This document shows positions 3,172 through 17,066 of a stretch of 43,160 nucleotides of DNA, piece after piece. The notes beneath the pieces are model-generated. The model ran no database searches and had not been told where the DNA came from. It saw only the letters and a list, made by a program, of their open reading frames with translations. Position 1 is the first letter of the stretch. Each line of letters starts with the position of its first letter. A program made the translations under genes and the position numbers. The DNA is from Bacilli bacterium (GTDB lineage Bacteria; Bacillota_I; Bacilli_A; RFN20; CAG-826), in assembly GCA_017447305.1 (NCBI GenBank), contig JAFSNY010000082.1, positions 1 to 43,160 of the forward strand. The letters run 5' to 3'.

Positions 3172-3203
3172 AGTGATATATGTATGTAAGAAAGGAGACT
3201 AAA

Positions 3204-4913
3204 ATGGAAAATAGAGTCATTGAAATTCTTCCTGAGATAAAGCCGAATTTTGATGAAGATGGCAATATCACCATCAGGAAGAAAAGAGTCGCGGCTTATG
3301 CTAGAGTTTCAACCGATTTCGAGGATCAATTAAATTCCTTTGAAAACCAGAAGAAAACGTATATGGCCAAGATTAGTGAGAATGCCAGCTGGGAATTCGT
3401 GGATTTATATTCCGATGAGGGGATCACTGGTACTTCCCTGAAAAACAGAGAAGGCTTTAAAAATATGATTAAAGACGCTCTTGAAGGGAAGATTGATTTG
3501 ATTTTGGTCAAGTCAATATCTAGATTCGCTAGAAACACTGTCGACTGCATCAAAACAAAAAGAGAACTCCAGGAAAAAGGGGTAGAGATTTATTTTGAAA
3601 AAGAAAACATCTCCTCTTTAGATGGAGCAAGCGAAACGATGCTCACAATTTACGCATCATTCGCCCAAGAGGAAAGTAGGCAAATATCCACTAACGTTAC
3701 ATGGGGTATACGCTCTAGGATGAAAGAAGGAACCTATCGCTCCTATTCTAAGGGTGTGCTCGGTTACAAAGTTACCGATGATAACAAACTAGAAATAGAC
3801 CCAGTTGGAAAAGAAACTGTCAAATTAATATTTGAAATGTTCATGGACGGATTAAGTTATCGCGATATAGTTGCAAAGTTAAAAAATGAAGGCCACTTAA
3901 CAGTAACCGGCAAAACAAACTGGGATGTCGGCTTGATTAGCAGAATCTTAAGTAACGAGAAATATTGTGGCGACATCATTTACCAAAAGACATATTGTAA
4001 GAATTATCTCACTCACGAAAGGGAGATTAATGACAACAAAATCAGTCAGTTTTTTATTCCCGCGCATCATGAATCAATTATTTCAAAGGAAAAATTCATG
4101 TATGTTCAACTTCTTAGAAAAGAAAGGAATGAATCATACGTCTCTACTTTGGATAACGGTAGAGGAAAAGAATTAAGTGGCCTAGTTTATTGTGCTTGTT
4201 GTGGAAGAACGATGCACCGAGTGGAATATGCTAGAGGCACAAAAAGTCATCGTTATGTTTTATCCTGCAAAATGCAAAGTCGCAAGAAGATAAATTTCAT
4301 CCAATGCAAATGTAAAAACACAATAGATTATGATACTTTGAAAGCCTTATTAATTGAGCTAGTTAATAAAGAAACTAAAGAAATAGATGTAGGCTTGCTT
4401 GAAAGAGCAATAATTCAAGGAAAAGCAGAAACAGCTGCATTCGCTGAAATCGCAAAAGTTAAAGCAGATATAGATGTTTGGAACTCAAAACTTCACGACC
4501 TAGTTAAAGAATCCACAAACGCTAATATTTCGATTGCTGATTATAAAAGCGAATTCCAGAAAATTCAGAACAAGATTTTCAAGTTAAAAGAAAAGTTAGA
4601 GGAACTCAACAATACCTTTAAAGAAACTTGCAGAAACGAAATATTTAATAAGGAATTAATGGAGTTTTTGAAAGAAAATAAATCTATTTCTTCTAGAATT
4701 GTTCATTCGGTTTTCAAAAGGATTTACCGCCTAGAAGATAATTCGTTACTACTAATTAAATCAAAAAGAACGTTATCACCAGAAGAGTTAGAAAGCATTA
4801 GAAAAAATTCAACCGCTTTCATGGTTTTAGTAAGTAATGAATTTCAAAAAGATAAGCACAAGATTATTTATAGAATTTTAGATTTGGAGGACGAAGATGA
4901 AAACAGAGATTAG
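3204..4913 (+). CDS. Large serine recombinase 1
   Basis: 569 residues from the ATG at 3204, chosen because AAAGGAG lies 8 nt before it; an upstream ATG at 3180 has no such site. The resolvase domain (about 27-170) has the catalytic Ser36 in AAYARVST, Arg in SLKNREGF, and SISRFARN. A recombinase domain follows (about 190-300, with SNEKYCGDIIYQK). A zinc ribbon (CACCGRTMHR with later Cys residues in QCKC) and a coiled coil (about 410-490) complete the usual large-serine-recombinase plan. It would perform unidirectional integration or excision through a 5'-phosphoserine link. It overlaps the second recombinase by 17 nt and ends with TAG. Confidence 0.93.
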   Translation: MENRVIEILPEIKPNFDEDGNITIRKKRVAAYARVSTDFEDQLNSFENQKKTYMAKISENASWEFVDLYSDEGITGTSLKNREGFKNMIKDALEGKIDLILVKSISRFARNTVDCIKTKRELQEKGVEIYFEKENISSLDGASETMLTIYASFAQEESRQISTNVTWGIRSRMKEGTYRSYSKGVLGYKVTDDNKLEIDPVGKETVKLIFEMFMDGLSYRDIVAKLKNEGHLTVTGKTNWDVGLISRILSNEKYCGDIIYQKTYCKNYLTHEREINDNKISQFFIPAHHESIISKEKFMYVQLLRKERNESYVSTLDNGRGKELSGLVYCACCGRTMHRVEYARGTKSHRYVLSCKMQSRKKINFIQCKCKNTIDYDTLKALLIELVNKETKEIDVGLLERAIIQGKAETAAFAEIAKVKADIDVWNSKLHDLVKESTNANISIADYKSEFQKIQNKIFKLKEKLEELNNTFKETCRNEIFNKELMEFLKENKSISSRIVHSVFKRIYRLEDNSLLLIKSKRTLSPEELESIRKNSTAFMVLVSNEFQKDKHKIIYRILDLEDEDENRD

Positions 4914-6528
4914 ATACCTACACAACAAGGATCCATTGCAAAAGCTTAAAGTAGCGGCTTACGCTAGAGTTTCTAGGGATAAAGAAGAACTTGAAAACTC
5001 TCTAGAAAACCAAATAAGACATTACACTACTTTGATAAATAGTTATGAGGAATTTGAATTTGCTGGAATCTATGCCGATGATGGCATTTCTGGGGGAACT
5101 ATTAAAAAGAGAAACCAGTTCAAATATATGCTCCAAAAAGCGTTCGCTCATGAAATTGATATCATTCTTGTTAAATCGATATCTAGATTCGCTAGAAATG
5201 TCGTCGATTTATTATCCACCATTCAAGAGTTAAGAGATGAAGACGTTGAGGTTTATTTTGAAAAAGAAAATATTTCTACACTGGATACAAAAAGCGATAA
5301 TTACCTAACTTTATACTCTAAATTTGCCGAAGAAGAACTCAATTCGATGGGTGGAAATGTAAGATGGTCTATTCAACAAAAGCTAGAACGCGGTAATTAT
5401 AGAATCAACGCTGTTAATGTCTTTGGGTATTATTACGATGAAGATAGGAATTTTAAAATAAACGAAAAAGAAGCTAAATGGGTTAGGGTGATGTTTCAAA
5501 TGTATATTGAAGGAAATAACACCGCCTTAATTGCAGATTTTTTAGAAAGGAACAATGTTAAAACAGTAACAGGGCTTGAAAGATGGACTTCTTCCTCTAT
5601 AAGGCGAATTCTTAGAAATGAGAAATACTGTGGGGACGTCCTTATTCAGAAGAGTTATTCCGAGAATTCAGTAACAAAAAGAAGAATCATCAATCATGGT
5701 GAAAGACAAAAATATCTCTTTAGAGATGTGATTCCACCTATCGTTTCTAGATCCGATTGGCTAAAGGCTCAAGAAATAATGAATGAGCATAAAAAAATCT
5801 ATCACATTGGCCAGAAAAACTGCCATGCATTACAAACCCATTACACTGGCTTTGGCTATTGTCCTTATTGTGGTAGTAACTACTTTAGGAAATTTAATAG
5901 GAAGGTTGAAATGCTTTACTGCTCTAGCAATAAAGATAGATGTACCTGCAAGGAAAGCGAATCTGTTTATATTGAACACTTAGATAAAATTATCCCAATT
6001 CTTATAAAGAAGCTAAAAGTGAATGAACCAGAATTGAGAAAAAGATTGATGCAGGTGTTCTCAGACACTAATGTCGATAAATCGATTAAAGAGGAAATAG
6101 ACGAAATAAACGGTCAGATTGAGTTCTTAAATAAAAGACTTGATGATTTCTCTTCTCTGGCCGGAGATGGCATGGAATTAGTAAAAAACGAGATTAAAAA
6201 AGAAATTGCTAATCAAACAGATAAGAAACTGTTCTTAGAAAACGAAATCATCACTTCGATTAATCCGGCTGCAAGAACCGAAGAGATAATAAAAACACTT
6301 AGAACGTTTCCTGATGTTGATTCGATAGGGGATTTCAATTTCAGAGCACTATTTAAAAGACTAGTTATTGTTAATAGGGATAGATTGATATTCGTAGTCG
6401 GTGATGATGACTTAAATAAACTTCCAAATAACATTAATAAAATAGCATTAGAATTTATTGAAACATTTGATTATAGAGTTAGATCCACTACATCTAGATG
6501 CACCTTTGGAATCTATATCAACAAGTAA
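4897..6528 (+). CDS. Large serine recombinase 2
   Basis: 543 residues; the ATG at 4897 follows GGAGGACGAAG inside the end of recombinase 1. The catalytic Ser26 lies in AAYARVSR, and SISRFARNVVD is conserved. The recombinase domain has RNEKYCGDVLIQK; the zinc ribbon is CPYCGSNYF with CSSNKDRCTC, and a coiled coil follows at about 395-450. It is a clear paralogue of its neighbour, but the helix that usually reads Phe-Ala-Gln-Glu-Glu-Ser here reads KFAEEELNSMGGNVRW, so the two have diverged in the interface or long-helix region. The pair probably acts together or on different sites, like CcrA/CcrB. It is followed at once by a terminator. Confidence 0.92.
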   Translation: MKTEIRYLHNKDPLQKLKVAAYARVSRDKEELENSLENQIRHYTTLINSYEEFEFAGIYADDGISGGTIKKRNQFKYMLQKAFAHEIDIILVKSISRFARNVVDLLSTIQELRDEDVEVYFEKENISTLDTKSDNYLTLYSKFAEEELNSMGGNVRWSIQQKLERGNYRINAVNVFGYYYDEDRNFKINEKEAKWVRVMFQMYIEGNNTALIADFLERNNVKTVTGLERWTSSSIRRILRNEKYCGDVLIQKSYSENSVTKRRIINHGERQKYLFRDVIPPIVSRSDWLKAQEIMNEHKKIYHIGQKNCHALQTHYTGFGYCPYCGSNYFRKFNRKVEMLYCSSNKDRCTCKESESVYIEHLDKIIPILIKKLKVNEPELRKRLMQVFSDTNVDKSIKEEIDEINGQIEFLNKRLDDFSSLAGDGMELVKNEIKKEIANQTDKKLFLENEIITSINPAARTEEIIKTLRTFPDVDSIGDFNFRALFKRLVIVNRDRLIFVVGDDDLNKLPNNINKIALEFIETFDYRVRSTTSRCTFGIYINK

Positions 6529-6773: not shown

Positions 6774-6847
6774 TGGAGCACGCGACGGGAATCGAACCCG
6801 CATATTCAGCTTGGGAAGCTAACGTTCTACCACTGAACTACGCATGC
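6774..6847 (-). tRNA. tRNA-Gly (anticodon CCC)
   Basis: The 74-nt cloverleaf has acceptor GCATGCG with CGCGTGC (one G-T pair), discriminator T and an encoded CCA. The D-arm stem is GTTC/GAAC. The anticodon stem TTAGC/GCTGA holds the loop TTCCCAA, so the anticodon is CCC, reading GGG. The T-arm is GCGGG-TTCGATT-CCCGT. The CCC isoacceptor is a minor one. This tRNA is the housekeeping gene nearest the element's right end. Confidence 0.93.
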
Positions 6848-6857
6848 ATACTCTTTT

Positions 6858-6886
6858 TTTATACTCGAAAGATGGCGGTTTTTCAA
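6858..6886 (-). promoter_or_regulatory. Promoter of tRNA-Gly
   Basis: On the minus strand TTGAAA (6881-6886) and TATAAA (6858-6863) are 17 bp apart. The -10 lies about 10 nt before the tRNA 5' end. Confidence 0.75.
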
Positions 6887-6908
6887 TAATTAACACTTCT
6901 ATGAAAAG

Positions 6909-6927
6909 AAAAAACTGGATTAACCAG
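6909..6927 (-). terminator. Weak terminator after tRNA-Val
   Basis: On the minus strand CTGG-TTAAT-CCAG is followed by TTTTTT. The stem has only 4 bp, but the position and T-run fit the end of the Thr-Val tRNA transcript. Confidence 0.4.
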
Positions 6928-6941
6928 CCTTATTTTCAGTT

Positions 6942-7017
6942 TGGTGGATGCTGAGAGACTCGAACTCCCGACCCCCACTACGTCAAAGTGGTGCTCTCCC
7001 AACTGAGCTAAGCATCC
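6942..7017 (-). tRNA. tRNA-Val (anticodon GAC)
   Basis: 76 nt with encoded CCA. The acceptor is GGATGCT/AGCATCC with discriminator A. The anticodon stem CCACT/AGTGG holds the loop TTGACGT, giving anticodon GAC. The arrangement matches the known bacterial tRNA-Val(GAC), except that position 37 is G instead of the usual A. The T-loop is TTCGAGT. It is 4 nt downstream of tRNA-Thr and cotranscribed with it. Confidence 0.92.
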
Positions 7018-7021
7018 ATGT

Positions 7022-7097
7022 TGGTGCCGACTACAGGAATTGAACCCGCAACCTACTGATTACGATTCAGTTGCTCTACCAATTGAGCTAAGTCGGC
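7022..7097 (-). tRNA. tRNA-Thr (anticodon CGT)
   Basis: 76 nt with encoded CCA. The acceptor is GCCGACT/AGTCGGC. The anticodon stem ACTGA/TCAGT holds the loop ATCGTAA, giving anticodon CGT, which reads ACG. The T-loop is TTCAATT. It is the first gene of the Thr-Val transcript. Confidence 0.93.
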
Positions 7098-8956: not shown

Positions 8957-9898
8957 TTATTTATTTTTGCCGGTAATCTCGTTCATGATTTTTAACTCTT
9001 CGACATTACCTTCAGAGATAGGTTTTCCATAGTAGAAACACGCGGCGAGCCCTGGACCGACATTGATGCCAGATGTTGGGCCACATGTGACGATGATAAT
9101 TTCTTTAGGTTTGATAGCTTCTTGTAAAGCATCCCTAATTAACATCGCATTTTTCATACGATCTGTTTCAGCGATGAAGATGATTTGTTCTTCTGGCTTT
9201 TCAATTGTTCTTTGGACATATTTCACTAAAACATCGACGGCTTTTTTCATTCCCACGACTTTTGTTAAGACATTAGTGAAACCATTACGTCCGAAGTCAC
9301 CCATTGGTTTAATTCCGACCATCGTTCCCATGAATGCAGCTCCAAAGGAGACACGACCTTTTCTAGAAAGGTAGAATAAATCATCCATTGGTCCCATTTC
9401 ATGGAGGCGATGTTTGTTTTCTTCAAGCCAAGCGATGGTTTCATCAAACGACTTTCCTTCCTCTCTTAAACGGCAGGCATCGATTGTTAATAAGCCGACC
9501 GCTAAAGAATAACGGAGGGTATCAACGATTTCGATTCTGCGTTTTGGGAATTCTTCTAATAAATCCTTTTTAGCCATTAAAGCAAAGTTGTATGTTCCAC
9601 TTAAAGCTGATGATAAGGCTAAGTAGATAATATCTTTGCCATTTTCTAAATGTTTTCTAAATACCTCTTTAAATTCTTCAACACTCGCAGGTGCGGTGGA
9701 CATGGTATTTTTCTTATCTCTGAGTAATTTGTAGAAGTCTTCTGGGGACTTAAAAAGTTCCCAGTCATTGTCACTAAGATGGTCCACTCCATCATTTGTG
9801 ACTAAGTGAGCTCTAACAACTTCATCAACTTTAAATCTTTCGCGAAGTTCTTTCTTAAGCTCGCAGTTGGTATCAGTAATAACGACAAAACTATTCAT
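8957..9898 (-). CDS. DegV-family fatty-acid-binding protein (FakB-like)
   Basis: 313 residues, the usual DegV length. Family marks are FVVITDTNCEL at the start, TMSTAPASVEEF near residue 90, ALSSALSGTYN near 115 and DLFYLSRKGRVSFG near 205. FakB proteins bind a free fatty acid and present its carboxylate to FakA for phosphorylation. A fakA gene and plsX are in the operon at 14397-17023, which supports this role rather than an unknown DegV. The start follows AAAAAGGATTTTATT. It appears to be a separate transcription unit between cls and the divergent hydrolase. Confidence 0.88.
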   Translation of the reverse strand: MNSFVVITDTNCELKKELRERFKVDEVVRAHLVTNDGVDHLSDNDWELFKSPEDFYKLLRDKKNTMSTAPASVEEFKEVFRKHLENGKDIIYLALSSALSGTYNFALMAKKDLLEEFPKRRIEIVDTLRYSLAVGLLTIDACRLREEGKSFDETIAWLEENKHRLHEMGPMDDLFYLSRKGRVSFGAAFMGTMVGIKPMGDFGRNGFTNVLTKVVGMKKAVDVLVKYVQRTIEKPEEQIIFIAETDRMKNAMLIRDALQEAIKPKEIIIVTCGPTSGINVGPGLAACFYYGKPISEGNVEELKIMNEITGKNK

Positions 9899-9999: not shown

Positions 10000-10968
10000 A
10001 TGGAAACATTACTATTAGTCTTAACAATTATCTCCGTCTCTCTCTTATTTTTATTCGAAGTAGTCAAACCAATTGTTGTTGGATATATCGTTGGAAGAAT
10101 CCTTTATCGTAATCACTTAGTAAGAAAAGAACCAACCGATTGGGGAAGAGATAGATGCAGTGATCCAACCAATTATGAACAAGTATTAATGTGGAAAGCT
10201 GGTCTTAAATGGGGAGAAGAAAACAAAGATTATTGCACTCCTGTTGATATCATGAGTGAAGGATTCCATCTTTTTGGAGAATTCTATGATTTTAAGAAAG
10301 ACAAAACTGTTATTATCGTTCCAGGAAGAACTGAAACGCTTCAATATAGTTATTATTTTGCAATTCCTTACAAGGAATTAGGATTTAATATCTTAGTTAT
10401 AGACAAGCGCGCGCATGGTTGGAGTGATGGCAAATATGAAGATGCCGGTCAATTCTCTCATGTCGATTTATTACGTTGGTCGGAATTTATTCATGAGAAA
10501 TTTGGGGTTAACGATATTACGCTTCACGGTATTTGTATCGGTGGTTCAACATGTTCATTCGCGTTTGCAAGTAAAGATCGTCCTGAATATTTAAAGAGAT
10601 TTGTCGCCGATGGATTATTTGCGACATTCTATGAAACATTTAAGAATCATATGATCGATCAGCATCGTCCAGTTTTCCCATATTGTCACACGACAATGTT
10701 TTGGGCGAAGGTCTACACCAAAGCAAACCTCACTCATAATGGTCCAAGATATCAAGTAGGAAAGATGGGAGGAGCAGTATTATTCCTCTATAGTAAAGAA
10801 GATATCTTCTCCACTCCTGAACAAGCGCATGAATTATATGAAAAGTGCTCTGCAAAGAAAAAAGAGTTAGTGTTCTTTGACAAAGGATGTCATAGTCACA
10901 TACTCATTAATAACCCTGAAAAATATCGAGAAACAATTAGAAAATTCATTGAGGAGACTTCTGATTAA
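10000..10968 (+). CDS. Membrane-anchored alpha/beta hydrolase with a Cys nucleophile
   Basis: 322 residues. Residues 3-35 form a hydrophobic N-terminal anchor. The hydrolase core includes VIIVPGR (oxyanion loop, about 104-110), LVIDKRAHGWSDG, and the nucleophile elbow HGICIGG with Cys179 where most relatives have Ser (Gly-x-Ser-x-Gly). The acid is likely in LYSKEDIFSTPEQ and the base His in DKGCHSHIL. Substrate is unknown; a lysophospholipid, acyl-ester or thioester role is plausible from the lipid neighbourhood. It is the only plus-strand gene in the lipid block and ends in its own terminator, convergent with the acyl carrier protein gene. Confidence 0.82.
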   Translation: METLLLVLTIISVSLLFLFEVVKPIVVGYIVGRILYRNHLVRKEPTDWGRDRCSDPTNYEQVLMWKAGLKWGEENKDYCTPVDIMSEGFHLFGEFYDFKKDKTVIIVPGRTETLQYSYYFAIPYKELGFNILVIDKRAHGWSDGKYEDAGQFSHVDLLRWSEFIHEKFGVNDITLHGICIGGSTCSFAFASKDRPEYLKRFVADGLFATFYETFKNHMIDQHRPVFPYCHTTMFWAKVYTKANLTHNGPRYQVGKMGGAVLFLYSKEDIFSTPEQAHELYEKCSAKKKELVFFDKGCHSHILINNPEKYRETIRKFIEETSD

Positions 10969-10983: not shown

Positions 10984-11232
10984 TTATTTCATCCGCGATT
11001 TAATATAGTTTACCCAATCTCTAACAGTGAGATTATGCTTAACATCATCGTTGTTGATGGTGACGTTAAAGGTATCCTGAATCCCCATAGCGATATAGAT
11101 CATCGCGATGGAATTCATTCCGATATCAGTAAAGATGTTTGTATCTAACGTAACGCTTTCTTTTAAGGTAGGATCCTCAAGTGATTCTGAAACAATTTCT
11201 ACAAGCTTATCGAAAATCTCTTCATCAGTCAT
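10984..11232 (-). CDS. Acyl carrier protein
   Basis: 82 residues, acidic and helical, with the phosphopantetheine-attachment Ser41 in DIGMNSIAMIY (the usual Asp-Ser-Leu reads Asn-Ser-Ile). It would carry acyl groups as thioesters. It is the last gene of the lipid operon and overlaps the tandem acyltransferase by 8 nt. The Asn in place of Asp before the Ser is seen in specialised carrier proteins, so it is probably not the general AcpP; it more likely serves the acyl-activating enzyme and acyltransferase of this operon. Confidence 0.85.
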   Translation of the reverse strand: MTDEEIFDKLVEIVSESLEDPTLKESVTLDTNIFTDIGMNSIAMIYIAMGIQDTFNVTINNDDVKHNLTVRDWVNYIKSRMK

Positions 11233-12481
11233 AACATCTTTTCTCCTTAATCGCTAGTTGATGTAATTCTTCAATTCTTTCTTCTAACATTTTAGACGTT
11301 TCATTTAAAGATTTCATTGATAATGTTGGTGGATCTAAGAGTTCACCAGTGTAGATATGTCTTGTTGAATACCAATGCTTTGCTCTGCAAATATAAATAG
11401 GTAAGATTGGCGATTTGCTTCTAGAAGCAATCATCATCGCTCCACTTTTGAAAGCATTAGATTCATCTTGAGCGATATGTCCACTTGGGAAAACGAGTAA
11501 TGTTCTTCCCCTATTTAAGACATCAACACATTTAGATATTGCTTCAATATCAAAAATATCACGGTCAATCATAATTGCCCCTATTCCTTTTAAAAGAGCA
11601 CTTCTAAGTTTATGATTTGCAAACACTTCTTTCGCGGCAAGAAAATGCACACGGCGACGATTAAACGCGCATAAAAGCACTAATGGATCGGAAAAGCCAT
11701 GATGGTTACTGGCAAATAAAACTGGTCCATCAAGTTTATGGTAATGATATTTCTTCCCTTGGTCATGAATATGTACACGAAAAATTGGGCTGAAATGGGT
11801 ATAAGCCCAAACTCTTCCTAAATCCATAAAGATGTTTTTAAAACTGAAGGTCGGATTTTTCTTCCTAACATTCATTTTTCTATGTAATTCCTCGATGTTT
11901 TTAACAAAGATGGTGTTAATGTCATCGTATTTTTCTTTGGTTAATTCACCATCAACCATGTCTCTAACATAGAAGCGAGAACCCACCATGACGTGATTTC
12001 TTTTAAAGAATCCATATCTTCCATCCGTGTAGATAGGAACAATAGGAACATCAGCTTCGTGAGCAATTCTAATATAGGATGGATTAAATGGTAATAATTC
12101 ATCAGTCAAGGCAAAATGACCTTCTGGAAAAACCACTACTTTCTTACCCTTTTTAAGCAGCGCAACAGCTTCATCGATATATCTAACATCTAATTGGTCT
12201 GTTCCCACCACTATCGCGTTGACACAGTTAAGGCAGAATTTTAATACAGGATTTCTATTGTAAATGAAATGAGAAACGATTGGGCGAATCTTATATCTAA
12301 AGAATAAGAAGAATAAAGTTATATAATCCCAGAAAGATTTATGGTTAGAAACAAATAAAGCACCTCCCTTTATCTTTCTTTTTTGATTTGAGCGATTTTC
12401 AAAATATGTTTTCCGTTTGAAAAAGATCCACGCGAGTGGAAAACCAGTAATCTTCATCATGAGGAAAACAAACGTATGCAT
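11225..12481 (-). CDS. Tandem (two-domain) PlsC-like acyltransferase
   Basis: 418 residues made of two lysophosphatidate-acyltransferase-type domains. Domain 1 has SNHKSFWDY (His47-x4-Asp52) and VVFPEGHF (about 117-123). Domain 2 has SNHHGFSDP (His260-x4-Asp265) and LVFPSGHIA (330-337), where the usual Glu of the FPEG motif is Ser. Both have a Pro-Ile-x-Pro-Ile-Tyr strand. A bacterial PlsC normally has one such domain in about 240 residues. The fusion could acylate two positions of glycerol 3-phosphate or a lysolipid in turn. It overlaps its neighbours by 1 and 8 nt and ends with TGA. Confidence 0.87.
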   Translation of the reverse strand: MHTFVFLMMKITGFPLAWIFFKRKTYFENRSNQKRKIKGGALFVSNHKSFWDYITLFFLFFRYKIRPIVSHFIYNRNPVLKFCLNCVNAIVVGTDQLDVRYIDEAVALLKKGKKVVVFPEGHFALTDELLPFNPSYIRIAHEADVPIVPIYTDGRYGFFKRNHVMVGSRFYVRDMVDGELTKEKYDDINTIFVKNIEELHRKMNVRKKNPTFSFKNIFMDLGRVWAYTHFSPIFRVHIHDQGKKYHYHKLDGPVLFASNHHGFSDPLVLLCAFNRRRVHFLAAKEVFANHKLRSALLKGIGAIMIDRDIFDIEAISKCVDVLNRGRTLLVFPSGHIAQDESNAFKSGAMMIASRSKSPILPIYICRAKHWYSTRHIYTGELLDPPTLSMKSLNETSKMLEERIEELHQLAIKEKRCYD

Positions 12482-14397
12482 TATTTCATATGCTCCGTGA
12501 GATATCTTTCAAAATCTTGGACGGTCGCTAATGGATCGTTAGGATCAAAGGAGATGTTAGTGTTGAAACGAGCGTTAACTAAAGACAATAAAGCAAAATA
12601 GTCTAAACTCGTACCATTTAAGTCATAAAGGAAATGCGATGTAGGAGTAATTAAACTGCGATCGACGTTTAATGCTTCCTGGAATAAATCGATAAGGATT
12701 TCTGTTAATGATGTGCTTTCATACTCTTCATTTTTGATGGCTTTATCAAAAGATAAGAGATGAATCTTATTTTCTTCAATTCCTTTTCTTAAGTATGTGC
12801 GGCTAACCTTAATCGCATTTCTATTTTGAATATCATCATAAGAAAGGAACAAGGATTTAATTTTATGAGAGAATGGCAATGTCTCATTAACAGAATCAAT
12901 GTATTTTTTGATTTCTTCAATCTCACTAGTCTGAAGCTTTTTGTTTGGTTGGATGATTAAAGAAATGTCATCTCTTTTTTCACCTAATCCGATAACAGAG
13001 AAATAAAGAACTGGAAATGATGAGAAATTGAAATTCTTTTCTATTTCATCAGGATTAACGTTTTCACCATTTTCAGTGATGATTAAATCCGTTTTTCTTC
13101 CATCTATATAATAGCGACCAGTTTCATCAACGTGAGCGATATCTAAAGTATCAAACCATTCATCGGTATGAATCTCTTTTCCTTCAATAATGATAGAGTG
13201 ACATGTCGATTGACCTTTTACCCTTAAAGTTCCATCCACGATTTGATAGGAAACAGATGGAAATGGTTTGCCGATTGAGTTAAGCAAACGATGTTTTGGT
13301 TTTTTAGATAACTCAAAGGAAGTAATTCCAATTTCACTAGCGCCATAGCCGTTATAAAGCGGGTAGCCAATTCCAGACATCAGTTTGAGAGTTGAGTCAT
13401 TAAGGTACGATCCACCGGAAATACAAAACTTAACTGAATCACCAAACAAAGCGTTTCTAACCTCTTTTAAATGACGTCTTGCCATAGAAATACCTAAGGC
13501 GTAATTGATGTTTTGTAGGTTGTTAATCTTAGCGATTCCTTTGTTGAATTTTTCCTCAAGTGCTTCACCTTTTTTATGAACTTCTCTTCTTACTTCATCT
13601 TCGATTGTTCTCCATAAAAGCGGGACGGCAAAAATATGGGTAACCTCGTGTTTTCTCACGGTATGAAGAATTGTTTGAGGAGAATAATCTTTTAAGAAAA
13701 CGAGAGTATATCCAAAATAGGTAAACCAGAAGTAAACTGCAATTAATCCAAAAATATGATAGAGAGGCAAAAACGCTAAAAGCTTAATTGTCTTTTTATA
13801 CATTCTTTTGGATTCTCTGCATTTAGAGAGGATGTATTCTGTGTTAGATAATTGGGCCAAAATTTCTTTTCCGCTATAGATGCAGATCTTCTCATTCATT
13901 GTGGTTCCACTAGTAGAAAGAGCTATCTCATTAGCGAAATTAAACTGGTGATTTGCTTCAATTTCGTAAAAAATATCTGAGATTTGCAGATTTTTTAAGC
14001 CAAAATCCTCATTTTCTCCATCACTAAGCAAATATTTGACCTTTAAAGTCTCTAATATAGATTTTGTTAAGTTTTTAGGATGTCTTAAGTTGATCAAATA
14101 TGGTTTATTTCCAGACATCAAAATAGCCCAAAAACCAATAACCCAATTAGGCGAGCTATCAATATTCAAACCAATAAAAATATTCTTTTCGGGAATTAAT
14201 TCTTCTAATCCTCTCGCTACTTCTCTGATCCTTTGTTTTGCTTCAGGATAGGAGATTTTAATCGTTTCTCCGTTTTCATCGTACTCAAAGATTGGAAAGT
14301 CTGTGTGAGAGAAATTTATTTCAAAAATATTCTCGAAAGTTGGCTTACTTTCGCGTAGATGACGCGTGTATACTCTTTGCAGCGTTCTTTGGTTCAT
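12481..14397 (-). CDS. Acyl-CoA/acyl-ACP synthetase (ANL family) with C-terminal carrier domain
   Basis: 638 residues. The adenylation domain has the phosphate loop ALSTSGTTMNEK (159-170), NGYGASEIG, and the YIDGRKTDLIITENGENVNP hinge. The catalytic Lys is in NAIKVSRTYLRKG. A carrier domain occupies about 560-638, with Ser597 in DLNGTSLDYFALL as the phosphopantetheine site. The protein would activate a fatty acid as acyl-AMP and load it onto its own or a separate carrier. This resembles Aas or fatty-acyl-AMP ligases. It is joined by 1-nt overlaps to plsX upstream and the tandem acyltransferase downstream. Substrate chain length cannot be read. Confidence 0.87.
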   Translation of the reverse strand: MNQRTLQRVYTRHLRESKPTFENIFEINFSHTDFPIFEYDENGETIKISYPEAKQRIREVARGLEELIPEKNIFIGLNIDSSPNWVIGFWAILMSGNKPYLINLRHPKNLTKSILETLKVKYLLSDGENEDFGLKNLQISDIFYEIEANHQFNFANEIALSTSGTTMNEKICIYSGKEILAQLSNTEYILSKCRESKRMYKKTIKLLAFLPLYHIFGLIAVYFWFTYFGYTLVFLKDYSPQTILHTVRKHEVTHIFAVPLLWRTIEDEVRREVHKKGEALEEKFNKGIAKINNLQNINYALGISMARRHLKEVRNALFGDSVKFCISGGSYLNDSTLKLMSGIGYPLYNGYGASEIGITSFELSKKPKHRLLNSIGKPFPSVSYQIVDGTLRVKGQSTCHSIIIEGKEIHTDEWFDTLDIAHVDETGRYYIDGRKTDLIITENGENVNPDEIEKNFNFSSFPVLYFSVIGLGEKRDDISLIIQPNKKLQTSEIEEIKKYIDSVNETLPFSHKIKSLFLSYDDIQNRNAIKVSRTYLRKGIEENKIHLLSFDKAIKNEEYESTSLTEILIDLFQEALNVDRSLITPTSHFLYDLNGTSLDYFALLSLVNARFNTNISFDPNDPLATVQDFERYLTEHMK

Positions 14398-15371
14398 TAA
14401 GCATGAAGCTCCTTAGCAATATTCTCAATAAAGTTACCTTCATGTAGTGTAACAGCGAACCTGACTGCAGAGAGGATTGTGTTCGCACTTGCATGTCCGT
14501 GCGCTTTTAAGCAAATCTTCTTTGGACCTAAGAAAATAGCGGCGCCTTCTTCGTTATAGTTGAAGTTTTTATGAATGTATTTTGTCGCAGCGATAATGTT
14601 TGGATCTTCTTTTCCGAAATTCAAAACGATTTTTTCAAGAACCATCGATAATGCTTCCGCGCCTTTTAGGAAGACGTTTCCGACAAAGCCATCACAGGCA
14701 ATAACATCAGCTTTGTCTAAATAAATTTCATGACCTTCAATATTGCCAACGAAATTCAAATTGCTTTCTTTTAGTAAACTAAATGCTTCTTTAGTCATCG
14801 CATTTCCTTTTGTTTCTTCTTTTCCAACATTTAATAATCCAACGCGTGGATTTTCAATGCTGCCAAAAGCAGATTTCATTAAGGCACTTCCCATTTTAGC
14901 GAATTTAACTAGTGTTTTGGCATCAATATCAAGGTTGGCACCACAATCTAAAAGAGCAAACCATTTTTCATGGATGTTAATCATTGGTGAAGCAAGTGCA
15001 GGGAATTTGATTCCTTCGAATAATCCTAATCTAAAGATTGATCCAACTAGGAATCCACCAGTGCTTCCAGCACTAATCATGGCGACACACTCATCATCGC
15101 CTTTTAAAGTATCGAGACTCTTCGCTAAAGATGTTTCTCCTCTTCCCTTAATTAAATCAAGTGGGGAATCGGTATTGAGAAATGTTTCTTTGGCGTCGAT
15201 TATTTCATAATGTTTTAAACCAACACGATTGATTGATTCTTGAAGCTTTTCTTTATCGCCAACTAAAACATATGTGTAATCTTTATATGCCTCTTCTGCT
15301 AAAAAAGCGCCTTCAACAAAGACATCAATTCCTTTGTCAGCGCCTAAAGTGTCAATTAAAATTTTTTTCAT
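14397..15371 (-). CDS. plsX: Phosphate acyltransferase PlsX
   Basis: 324 residues, the normal length. It begins KKILIDTLGADKGIDVFVEG; usual PlsX proteins start with a similar Asp-x-Gly-Gly-Asp segment. Other marks are SAGSTGGFLVGS, RVGLLNVGKEETKGN, and IACDGFVGNVFLKG near the C-terminus. PlsX interconverts acyl-ACP and acyl-phosphate at the membrane. Its start overlaps the fakA stop as ATGA. With FakA upstream, it would move acyl-phosphate to acyl-ACP, or feed acyl-phosphate to an acyltransferase. No plsY is present in the window. Confidence 0.93.
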   Translation of the reverse strand: MKKILIDTLGADKGIDVFVEGAFLAEEAYKDYTYVLVGDKEKLQESINRVGLKHYEIIDAKETFLNTDSPLDLIKGRGETSLAKSLDTLKGDDECVAMISAGSTGGFLVGSIFRLGLFEGIKFPALASPMINIHEKWFALLDCGANLDIDAKTLVKFAKMGSALMKSAFGSIENPRVGLLNVGKEETKGNAMTKEAFSLLKESNLNFVGNIEGHEIYLDKADVIACDGFVGNVFLKGAEALSMVLEKIVLNFGKEDPNIIAATKYIHKNFNYNEEGAAIFLGPKKICLKAHGHASANTILSAVRFAVTLHEGNFIENIAKELHA

Positions 15372-17023
15372 GCGTTAATAACTCCAATCAATAAATCGTA
15401 AATTGGTTGTTTACCTTCAATTATTCCAATTTCCAAATATGGGTATTTTTCTTCAATCATTTCTTTGATGGTGTTGATTTCATCAACATTTACATCTTCA
15501 CCATAGAAAATGAACATTATTTCTTTTTCGTCGATTTCATCAATGTTATCAATTAAATCCATAGCGGTTTTAACTAATGAATCAGAGCCCGCAATAATAT
15601 CTTTTTTGATGTATCCGATATATTGTCCAGCGTGACCAATTTTATCTTTAATCTTATAATCTTTGTTTGCTTTAGCAACAAATGCGGAAGTAACCATGTC
15701 TTTTCCACTTAAGATACCATCTAATAATACTTCTGGATCAGTTTCTGAACCCATCATTAAAGAAAGACCATAATATCCTTCTTGAACTGTTTCGGTTTCA
15801 GCAATGTAGATATTTGTATCATTACATAATTCTTTAGCTTGACGGCAAGCAAGTAAGATATTGGAATTATTTGGAAGAAGAATAACATTATTCGCGTTTG
15901 CTTCTTTAATCGCGGACAAGATTTCTTCGGTTGAGGTATTCATGGTTTGACCACCATTAATGACAATGGTTGAGCCTAGTTCTTTGAAGGTTCTAATAAT
16001 ACCTTCACCCATAGCGATAGAAATAATTGCTGTTTCACATTTCTTACTTTTTAAGATTTCATTATGTTGTAAGGCCATGTTCTCAATCTTAATCTTTAAG
16101 AATTCACCATATTGCTGCGCGAACGTTAAAACATTTGATGGTGTCTTAGTGTGAATATGAACTTTAACAATTGTTCCATCGACAGTGACAACTAAAGAAT
16201 CTCCAAGGAGAGAAATGTCTTTAATAAACTTGTTCACATCAAAAGATGGAATATCAATTTTACTATTCAGTAATTGAAGCAAGAATTCAGTGCAATAACC
16301 ATAATCTAAAGTACTATTTTCATTGAAGGCTGAATAATCGACAATGGCGTTATCCATTTCACGATGATCTTCTTCGTTAAAAGCCATTTCAATGACGGTC
16401 TTAGTTTCTTTTCCGGTCGCGAAATTAACAAAGCCGGCAAAGATGGACAAGAGGCCACGGCCTCCACTATCAACAACACCAGATTCTTTTAGAATAGCTA
16501 AAAGATTTGGAGTGTTTTCTAAAGAGATAAGCATTGCTTCATATGTCTTAGAAAGAAGTGAGGCAAAGTCCATTCTTTCATTAACTTGATTTTTGATGTT
16601 TTCAATACCTTCACGGGCGACAGTTAAAATTGTTCCTTCGACAGGATTAATCGCACATTTATAAGCAAGTTTATAACCATCAACAAGAGCTTCGGCAAAT
16701 TCAACCGCGGTGATTTTATCTTTATCAACAAGATAATTGGACATTCCTTTGAAGTATTGAGAAAGCAAAACTCCCGAATTACCTCTCGCACCAAAAAGAC
16801 AACCTTTTGCAAAAGCTGCTGCAATCTTGTTTAATGCTGTTTCATCTTTTATCGCTAAAAGGCCATTATAATAAGTGATTTTCATGTTCGTGCCTGTATC
16901 GCCATCTGGAACAGGGAAAACATTTAAATCGTTAATTAATTTATAATCACTCTCCAGGGTTTCATAACCACTGATGAGCATCTTCTTAAATGTAACGCCG
17001 TCTAATAGGTAAATCTTTTCCAT
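15368..17023 (-). CDS. fakA: Fatty acid kinase catalytic subunit FakA
   Basis: 551 residues. The N-terminal DhaL-type kinase domain (about 1-200) has NVFPVPDGDTGTNM, with the metal-binding Asp40/Asp42 region. The middle and C-terminal domains resemble the DegV-fold-containing half of YloV/FakA. FakA phosphorylates fatty acids bound to FakB to make acyl-phosphate. The start matches the family position, but there is no ribosome site: a consensus promoter ends 14 nt before the ATG, so translation may be near-leaderless. It is the first gene of the operon and ends with TGA, overlapping plsX by 4 nt. Confidence 0.93.
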   Translation of the reverse strand: MEKIYLLDGVTFKKMLISGYETLESDYKLINDLNVFPVPDGDTGTNMKITYYNGLLAIKDETALNKIAAAFAKGCLFGARGNSGVLLSQYFKGMSNYLVDKDKITAVEFAEALVDGYKLAYKCAINPVEGTILTVAREGIENIKNQVNERMDFASLLSKTYEAMLISLENTPNLLAILKESGVVDSGGRGLLSIFAGFVNFATGKETKTVIEMAFNEEDHREMDNAIVDYSAFNENSTLDYGYCTEFLLQLLNSKIDIPSFDVNKFIKDISLLGDSLVVTVDGTIVKVHIHTKTPSNVLTFAQQYGEFLKIKIENMALQHNEILKSKKCETAIISIAMGEGIIRTFKELGSTIVINGGQTMNTSTEEILSAIKEANANNVILLPNNSNILLACRQAKELCNDTNIYIAETETVQEGYYGLSLMMGSETDPEVLLDGILSGKDMVTSAFVAKANKDYKIKDKIGHAGQYIGYIKKDIIAGSDSLVKTAMDLIDNIDEIDEKEIMFIFYGEDVNVDEINTIKEMIEEKYPYLEIGIIEGKQPIYDLLIGVINA

Positions 17024-17037
17024 ATGAAATCACGAAT

Positions 17038-17066
17038 ATTATAATAACCCAGACATATCTTTTCAA
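17038..17066 (-). promoter_or_regulatory. Promoter of the fakA-plsX lipid operon
   Basis: On the minus strand TTGAAA (17061-17066) and TATAAT (17038-17043) are 17 bp apart. Transcription would start about 6-9 nt before the fakA ATG, leaving no room for a ribosome site. Confidence 0.78.

Follow-up and report, generated by a model that had tools for sequence, protein, structure and literature searches.

A conserved five-gene operon with its own acyl carrier protein in a Bacilli genome: a proposed second unit of acyl activation and double acylation

In the FakA/FakB-PlsX-PlsY route described from Staphylococcus and Enterococcus, FakA together with a DegV/FakB protein makes acyl-phosphate, and PlsX exchanges the acyl group between phosphate and acyl carrier protein (ACP) (PMC6509188). 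The present analysis concerns an operon of five minus-strand genes at positions 10984-17023 of a 43,160-nucleotide stretch of DNA (hereafter the window), which is contig JAFSNY010000082.1 (C80) of a Bacilli assembly (GCA_017447305.1) with a size of 1.59 Mb and 92% completeness. Judged from sequence, FakA, DegV/FakB and PlsX all appear to be represented at this locus. However, FakA and PlsX are here second copies that branch separately and lie in an operon with an ANL enzyme that carries a fused carrier domain, a tandem acyltransferase and an ACP of its own, and plsY is encoded outside it. The plsX-acpB operon of Enterococcus faecalis is similar in that a divergent auxiliary ACP is co-transcribed with plsX, and AcpB is reported to take the acyl group from acyl-phosphate better than AcpA (PMC6509188). 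AcpB differs in that it works with FabT regulation in an organism with type II fatty-acid synthesis (FASII), and its operon has neither an ANL gene nor a tandem acyltransferase.

The LplT-Aas system of Escherichia coli, reported only from Gram-negatives, combines an MFS transporter, an acyl-ACP synthetase and a lysophospholipid acyltransferase (PMC11416262). Aas is one fused protein with one acyltransferase domain and uses the general ACP, whereas here the ligase and acyltransferase are separate genes with two carriers, two acyltransferase domains and FakA/PlsX in addition. In Chlamydia, an acyl-ACP synthase (AasC, CT776) and a lysophospholipid acyltransferase (LPLAT, CT775) with adjacent numbers act jointly on scavenged fatty acid (PMC5693948), but there is a single acyltransferase, no dedicated carrier and no FakA/PlsX. 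The glycerophosphocholine pathway of mitis streptococci, in which a scavenged head-grouped glycerophospho-compound is acylated twice by enzymes not identified there, offers a likeness without gene evidence, and only PlsY and PlsC acyltransferases were reported for these streptococci (PMC6805115). With PlsC itself the tandem protein shares the HX4D motif I and the PF01553 fold but not the FPEGTR motif III, which reads FPEGH and FPSGH in the window. The literature searched, with subscription papers outside its scope, yielded the FakAB-PlsX, LplT-Aas, Chlamydia and streptococcal work and no account of this operon; the original prediction, made from the DNA letters, likewise named no described operon of this makeup.

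Five overlapping genes and their parts

The open reading frames (ORFs) occur exactly where the original prediction had placed them and are joined by overlaps of 4 (15368-15371), 1 (14397), 1 (12481) and 8 nt (11225-11232). Their assigned identities hold in Pfam and NCBIfam. The features are as follows.

15368..17023, minus strand: FakA-type fatty-acid kinase, operon copy, 551 aa (Dak2, FakA-like_M and FakA-like_C); first operon gene
14397..15371, minus strand: PlsX2, acyl-ACP:phosphate acyltransferase paralogue, 324 aa (PF02504; TIGR00182)
12481..14397, minus strand: ANL adenylating enzyme with C-terminal carrier domain, 638 aa (PF00501 and PF00550)
11225..12481, minus strand: tandem PlsC-type acyltransferase, 418 aa (two PF01553 stretches; first half, AT1, NHKSFWD...FPEGH; second half, AT2, NHHGFSD...FPSGH)
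10984..11232, minus strand: dedicated ACP, 82 aa (PF00550; attachment motif N-S-I, Ser41)
17038..17066, minus strand: candidate promoter TTGAAA-17-TATAAT upstream of fakA (11/12 consensus match)

The operon FakA passed the NCBIfam YloV subfamily cut-off but missed the FakA equivalog cut-off (444 of 975 bits), and PlsX2 scored above the TIGR00182 equivalog cut-off (247.5 vs 243.4 bits). The match of the fused ANL carrier to PF00550 was weak yet above the cut-off (22.9 vs 20.8 bits). This protein has the carrier Ser597 and an A10-type Lys530; in the alignment S597, D592, L593 and R533 were invariant and K530 nearly so. Its LPLYHIFG motif is FadD-like and resembles that of fatty-acid ligases. Since Ser597 was present in 12/12 homologues and Ser41 of the cluster ACPs in 25/25, the two predicted phosphopantetheine sites are not chance motifs. 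N-S-I is the ACP family consensus, and its interpretation as the sign of a degenerate ACP was dropped. In the tandem protein, HX4D motifs were conserved in both domains, with their aspartates and most acyltransferase residues invariant. Its AlphaFold2 (AF2) model (pLDDT 85) gave TmPlsC, GPAT1, squash GPAT and PatA as the best PDB folds in Foldseek, and its closest NCBIfam matches were the Aas-type models PRK08633/PRK08043, the cut-offs of which were missed. Finally, promoter-like sites in the region upstream of fakA were rarer than in shuffled sequence, and the candidate promoter is weak evidence.

Conservation, gene co-occurrence and paralogues

GTDB genomes were scanned with the alignment of ANL-carrier proteins, the 18-row alignment of tandem acyltransferases being too divergent for this purpose, and relatives of the ANL-carrier were found at 471 loci in Bacilli and Clostridia. 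Neighbourhoods and gene content were studied for the best 80 of the 471 loci, which came from Bacilli and Clostridia (Lachnospiraceae and Oscillospiraceae by record titles), many from ruminants, and showed the same parts repeatedly. In three genomes of the same family (G007, G187 and G178) the order was FakA-PlsX-ANL-AT-ACP. A phosphopantetheinyl transferase was inserted into the operon in G152 and G158, the operon was reduced to FakA-AT in G038, and in G039, G090 and G021 an ANL-AT-ACP set occurred with an LRAT protein, an MFS transporter and a second, stand-alone ligase (ANL2). The two acyltransferases were adjacent ORFs in G102, G145, G109, G179 and G028; overall, the domains were fused in 22/66 loci and split in 44/66, with at least six changes on the ANL tree.

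Co-occurrence was counted in 77 non-redundant loci, with ORFs taken from all six frames. The ACP was present in 58 of the 66 loci with AT2 and in none of the 11 without it, and PlsX or ANL2 accompanied the ACP in 50 of its 58 loci but occurred in none of the 19 loci that lack it. No locus had both PlsX (38 loci) and ANL2 (12 loci). The pattern was similar in the subset of 42 loci that had 8 kb of sequence to either side, where the ACP accompanied AT2 in 33/35 loci (0/7 without AT2) and PlsX or ANL2 accompanied the ACP in 31/33 loci (0/9 without ACP; PlsX 27, ANL2 4, none together). Loci with AT1 only kept the ANL-carrier and usually FakA, DegV, MFS and hydrolase genes, and had no ACP, PlsX or ANL2. 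Among phylogenetically independent pairs, ACP against loader stood at 5:0 (sign test p 0.0625) and AT2 against ACP at about 2.5 of 3. As they never occur together, PlsX and ANL2 look like alternative ACP loaders; most simply, either PlsX2 or ANL2 would load the ACP as donor for AT2, and AT1 would draw on the fused carrier. The cluster would offer a natural experiment in the swapping of PlsX for an acyl-ACP ligase. Overall, conservation supports the five genes as one functional unit with a dedicated ACP, and both FakA/PlsX and the ANL enzyme look like suppliers of acyl groups, as had been suggested earlier.

In the PlsX tree, 48 cluster-linked PlsX and one copy from a cluster-bearing genome shared one side of a branch with SH-aLRT support of 99, and the other side held 37 unlinked PlsX, mostly the housekeeping PlsX of those genomes. 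The cluster/unlinked label changed 2 times vs 28.3 in shuffles, and the cluster branch spanned Bacilli and Clostridia. PlsX2 retained 17/19 columns nearly invariant in housekeeping PlsX, counted over columns flagged by either group's comparison, and cluster PlsX in general retained almost all of the positions that do not vary in housekeeping PlsX. In the FakA tree the family housekeeping copies formed their own clade (100), with the cluster copies, including that of the window, outside it; the cluster copies did not form one clade (4 changes). Separately, the operon FakA of G178 (L042:5621-7069) was strongly divergent (109 bits, with a very long tree branch) and is possibly decaying or repurposed. 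The ANL2-type clusters of G102, G145 and G109 (L097, L098 and L099) were accompanied by an additional, unlinked FakA-PlsX pair belonging to yet another PlsX branch, which in G109 adjoins an ACP-length match.

Counterparts of the operon genes were encoded elsewhere in the same genome. PlsY, correctly said to be missing from the window, was found on contig C73, and six further PlsC-type ORFs included one (L002) with the classical FPEGTR motif. A second PlsX on C52 scored 298 bits vs 236 for the operon copy, and a second FakA on C24 scored 276 bits vs 186. A second ANL-carrier protein (C25:14328-16223; L226:8278-10263) was 31% identical with its carrier serine intact. Its gene stands alone between genes resembling fmt and rpsT in sequence, and it kept this place in five relatives (G170, G038, G164, G033 and G103); in two of these five the operon itself had no match. 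Therefore the operon is a parallel set and not a replacement, and its proposed role as the sole, self-contained route was rejected. Of the findings that were to speak against the original prediction, a separate PlsY/PlsC set was thus made out, while neither scattering of the operon in relatives nor FASII was. No other stand-alone ACP was found in the 92% complete genome; an interpretation of the fused carrier as the sole ACP of the cell was nevertheless dropped, as most relatives, including the single-contig G103, had a separate ACP-length match.

The ketosynthase C-terminal domain (PF02801) was found neither in this genome nor in 23 others from its family, in a search that detected it in 10/14 control genomes. 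Because of this, the organism is very probably a fatty-acid auxotroph with the ordinary PlsX-PlsY-PlsC enzymes plus the operon. This agrees with the loss of fatty-acid synthesis reported for uncultured gut Bacilli of order RF39 (PMC6784871). Of 20 genomes taken from the wider set of loci, 8 had ketosynthase, so that FASII loss does not by itself account for the system. A FASII-linked operon was accordingly rejected on the 24 genomes without ketosynthase, and a strict tie to auxotrophy was rejected on the wider set.

Proposed reactions and competing explanations

Gene content, paralogy, patterns of co-occurrence and the conservation of the acyltransferase motifs and of the carrier serines were observed directly, and from these, by computational means, we infer the reactions, the pairing of AT1 with the fused carrier and of AT2 with the ACP, and the acceptor. 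We tentatively favour the operon as a dedicated second unit of acyl activation and double acylation that runs parallel to the housekeeping PlsX-PlsY-PlsC enzymes and acts on a head-grouped glycerophospho-compound. FakB (DegV) would present scavenged fatty acid for phosphorylation by the operon FakA, and PlsX2 would transfer the acyl group from phosphate to the N-S-I ACP, the putative donor for AT2. The ANL enzyme would adenylate fatty acid and load its own fused carrier at Ser597, the putative donor for AT1. The tandem enzyme could then place two acyl groups, one per carrier, on one acceptor, most likely a lysophospholipid or glycerophosphodiester that is scavenged or derived from turnover. 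The fuller version, in which two carriers loaded differently, through acyl-phosphate and acyl-adenylate, each feed one half of the tandem enzyme to yield a diacyl phospholipid, as a Gram-positive counterpart of LplT-Aas, is conceivable but doubtful.

The choice of acceptor draws on motif III and on the recurrent partners. Motif III was FPEG-H/K/R in nearly all cluster proteins and never FPEGTR, the form found in PlsC L002 of the same genome and in the solved lysophosphatidate (LPA) acyltransferase 5kym. The recurrent core partners in relatives were an LRAT/PLAAT-like protein, MFS transporters and a membrane alpha/beta hydrolase. The cluster LRAT proteins share an invariant His and the NCEHF signature with the PLAAT/LRAT phospholipase-acyltransferases (PDB 4dot, 7zom), and their profile matched human PLAAT3; they differ from PLAAT in being bacterial, short and encoded with ANL, acyltransferase and ACP genes. 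Motif III and the LRAT, MFS and hydrolase neighbours together favour a (lyso)glycerophospholipid over glycerol 3-phosphate, and the acceptor is probably not the latter. Identification of one MFS protein (MFS2) as an MFSD2A-type lysolipid transporter was unsupported, its profile having matched no solved structure.

Several observations weigh against this proposal. AT2 of the window has FPSG (FPSGH) and not FPEG. In G170 and G164 the operon lacks ANL and keeps both acyltransferase domains and the ACP; these genomes carry a separate ANL-carrier gene, which may or may not serve AT1. Beside the operon of the window there is neither an LRAT gene nor a lipid transporter that was recognised, and glycosyltransferase and polysaccharide-deacetylase genes likewise recur near the cluster. 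In addition, the association tests were exploratory and devised after the data had been seen, on related loci with only 5 independent pairs.

The original prediction of a diacylated glycerolipid built from glycerol 3-phosphate would make AT1 a glycerol 3-phosphate acyltransferase (GPAT) and AT2 an LPA acyltransferase, together forming phosphatidate as a carrier-dependent alternative to PlsY/PlsC. Such a product could still be made; the fusion of two PlsC-type domains, Foldseek matches that include GPAT1 of human and the GPAT of squash, and fatty-acid auxotrophy speak for it. It is nonetheless unlikely, since PlsY and an ordinary PlsC are already in the genome, motif III lacks the Thr-Arg of the FPEGTR signature, clusters with a single AT1 would yield only LPA, and the recurrent partners point more to a (lyso)lipid. 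O-acylation of a glycolipid or saccharide, with a glycosyltransferase and a deacetylase building the core and the tandem enzyme adding two acyl chains, is quite unlikely. A GT2 family at 25 loci and a polysaccharide-deacetylase family at 13 keep a glycolipid acceptor under consideration, as does the mannoside acyltransferase PatA among the structural neighbours, but these genes usually lie 5-8 genes off on either strand and none is near the operon of the window.

Duplication of FakA, PlsX, ANL-carrier and ACP could also mean redundancy, with this lineage keeping a spare version of the usual route for exogenous fatty acids and making no separate product with it. We give this little credence, as the cluster PlsX is an old separate branch with the same partners across Bacilli and Clostridia, the cluster is also kept in the 8/20 wider genomes that retain ketosynthase, and the tandem acyltransferase is not a duplicate of the genome's own housekeeping PlsC. 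Finally, an ANL-carrier fusion, a separate ACP and an Sfp-type phosphopantetheinyl transferase in relatives would suit a small lipopeptide or polyketide-like product, with the ANL-carrier as a one-module loader of nonribosomal peptide synthetase (NRPS) type. This is highly improbable given that no ketosynthase (PF02801) was found in the genome and no condensation domain in the five operon proteins, that PlsX2 and FakA are strictly acyl-phosphate enzymes, and that the ANL enzyme has the LPLYHIFG motif.

Under the favoured proposal of double acylation of a head-grouped compound, the operon offers candidates for the Gram-positive acylation of lysolipids or glycerophosphodiesters, for which genes were not identified in PMC6805115, and the wider cluster offers candidates for bacterial PLAAT-like enzymes. 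Uncultured gut Bacilli are known to be auxotrophic for fatty acids (RF39, PMC6784871), and their membrane building has been inferred only from FakAB-PlsX; a second conserved lipid-acylation unit, seen through the ANL-carrier at the 471 gut Bacilli and Clostridia loci, would be testable enzyme by enzyme.

Genes beside the operon and other observations

The DegV/FakB and cls genes reported close to the operon are present at those places. Two flanking genes recur with the operon in relatives:

8957..9898, minus strand: DegV/FakB-type fatty-acid binding protein (PF02645/TIGR00762), beyond ABH1
10000..10968, plus strand: ABH1, membrane-anchored alpha/beta hydrolase (Cys nucleophile in G-I-C-I-G; C179-D268-H298)

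DegV passed its domain cut-off and missed the FakB1 equivalog cut-off. It was kept next to the operon in G007, G187, G178, G170, G164 and G038, and probably works with the operon FakA. In ABH1, an N-terminal helix is present, as is a GxCxG elbow (HGICIG) in which cysteine replaces the usual nucleophile serine, and C179, D268 and H298 were invariant in 25/25 aligned homologues. Cysteine elbows are known in acyl-transferring enzymes such as polyhydroxyalkanoate (PHA) synthases. The AF2 model of ABH1 (pLDDT 95) was nearest in Foldseek to the archaeal Pf2001 esterase and to monoglyceride lipases, with the membrane phospholipase PlaF (6i8w) lower in the list. MFS genes were present with the cluster in relatives and none adjoined the operon of the window. 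Besides the GT2 glycosyltransferases and the polysaccharide deacetylases, small zinc-ribbon/membrane proteins (24 of the 80 loci) recurred near the cluster.

Elsewhere in the genome, contig C56 (G000:C56; L234) holds a frame of 998 aa, possibly a small NRPS-like protein, which begins in the manner of an adenylation enzyme, has a PF00550 carrier and, by eye, is condensation-like in its C-terminal part. In other genera, a separate branch of full-length tandem PlsC was found immediately upstream of the S10 ribosomal operon (L051, L052, L054, L057, L058, L074 and others). The contig of the window stops right after the S10 gene, and this genome may have an S10-linked tandem PlsC in the assembly gap. 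At the left end of the window, two consecutive large recombinase-like ORFs (3180-6528, plus strand), with resolvase-like N termini by eye, adjoin three tRNA genes (6774-7097), which suggests an integrated element.

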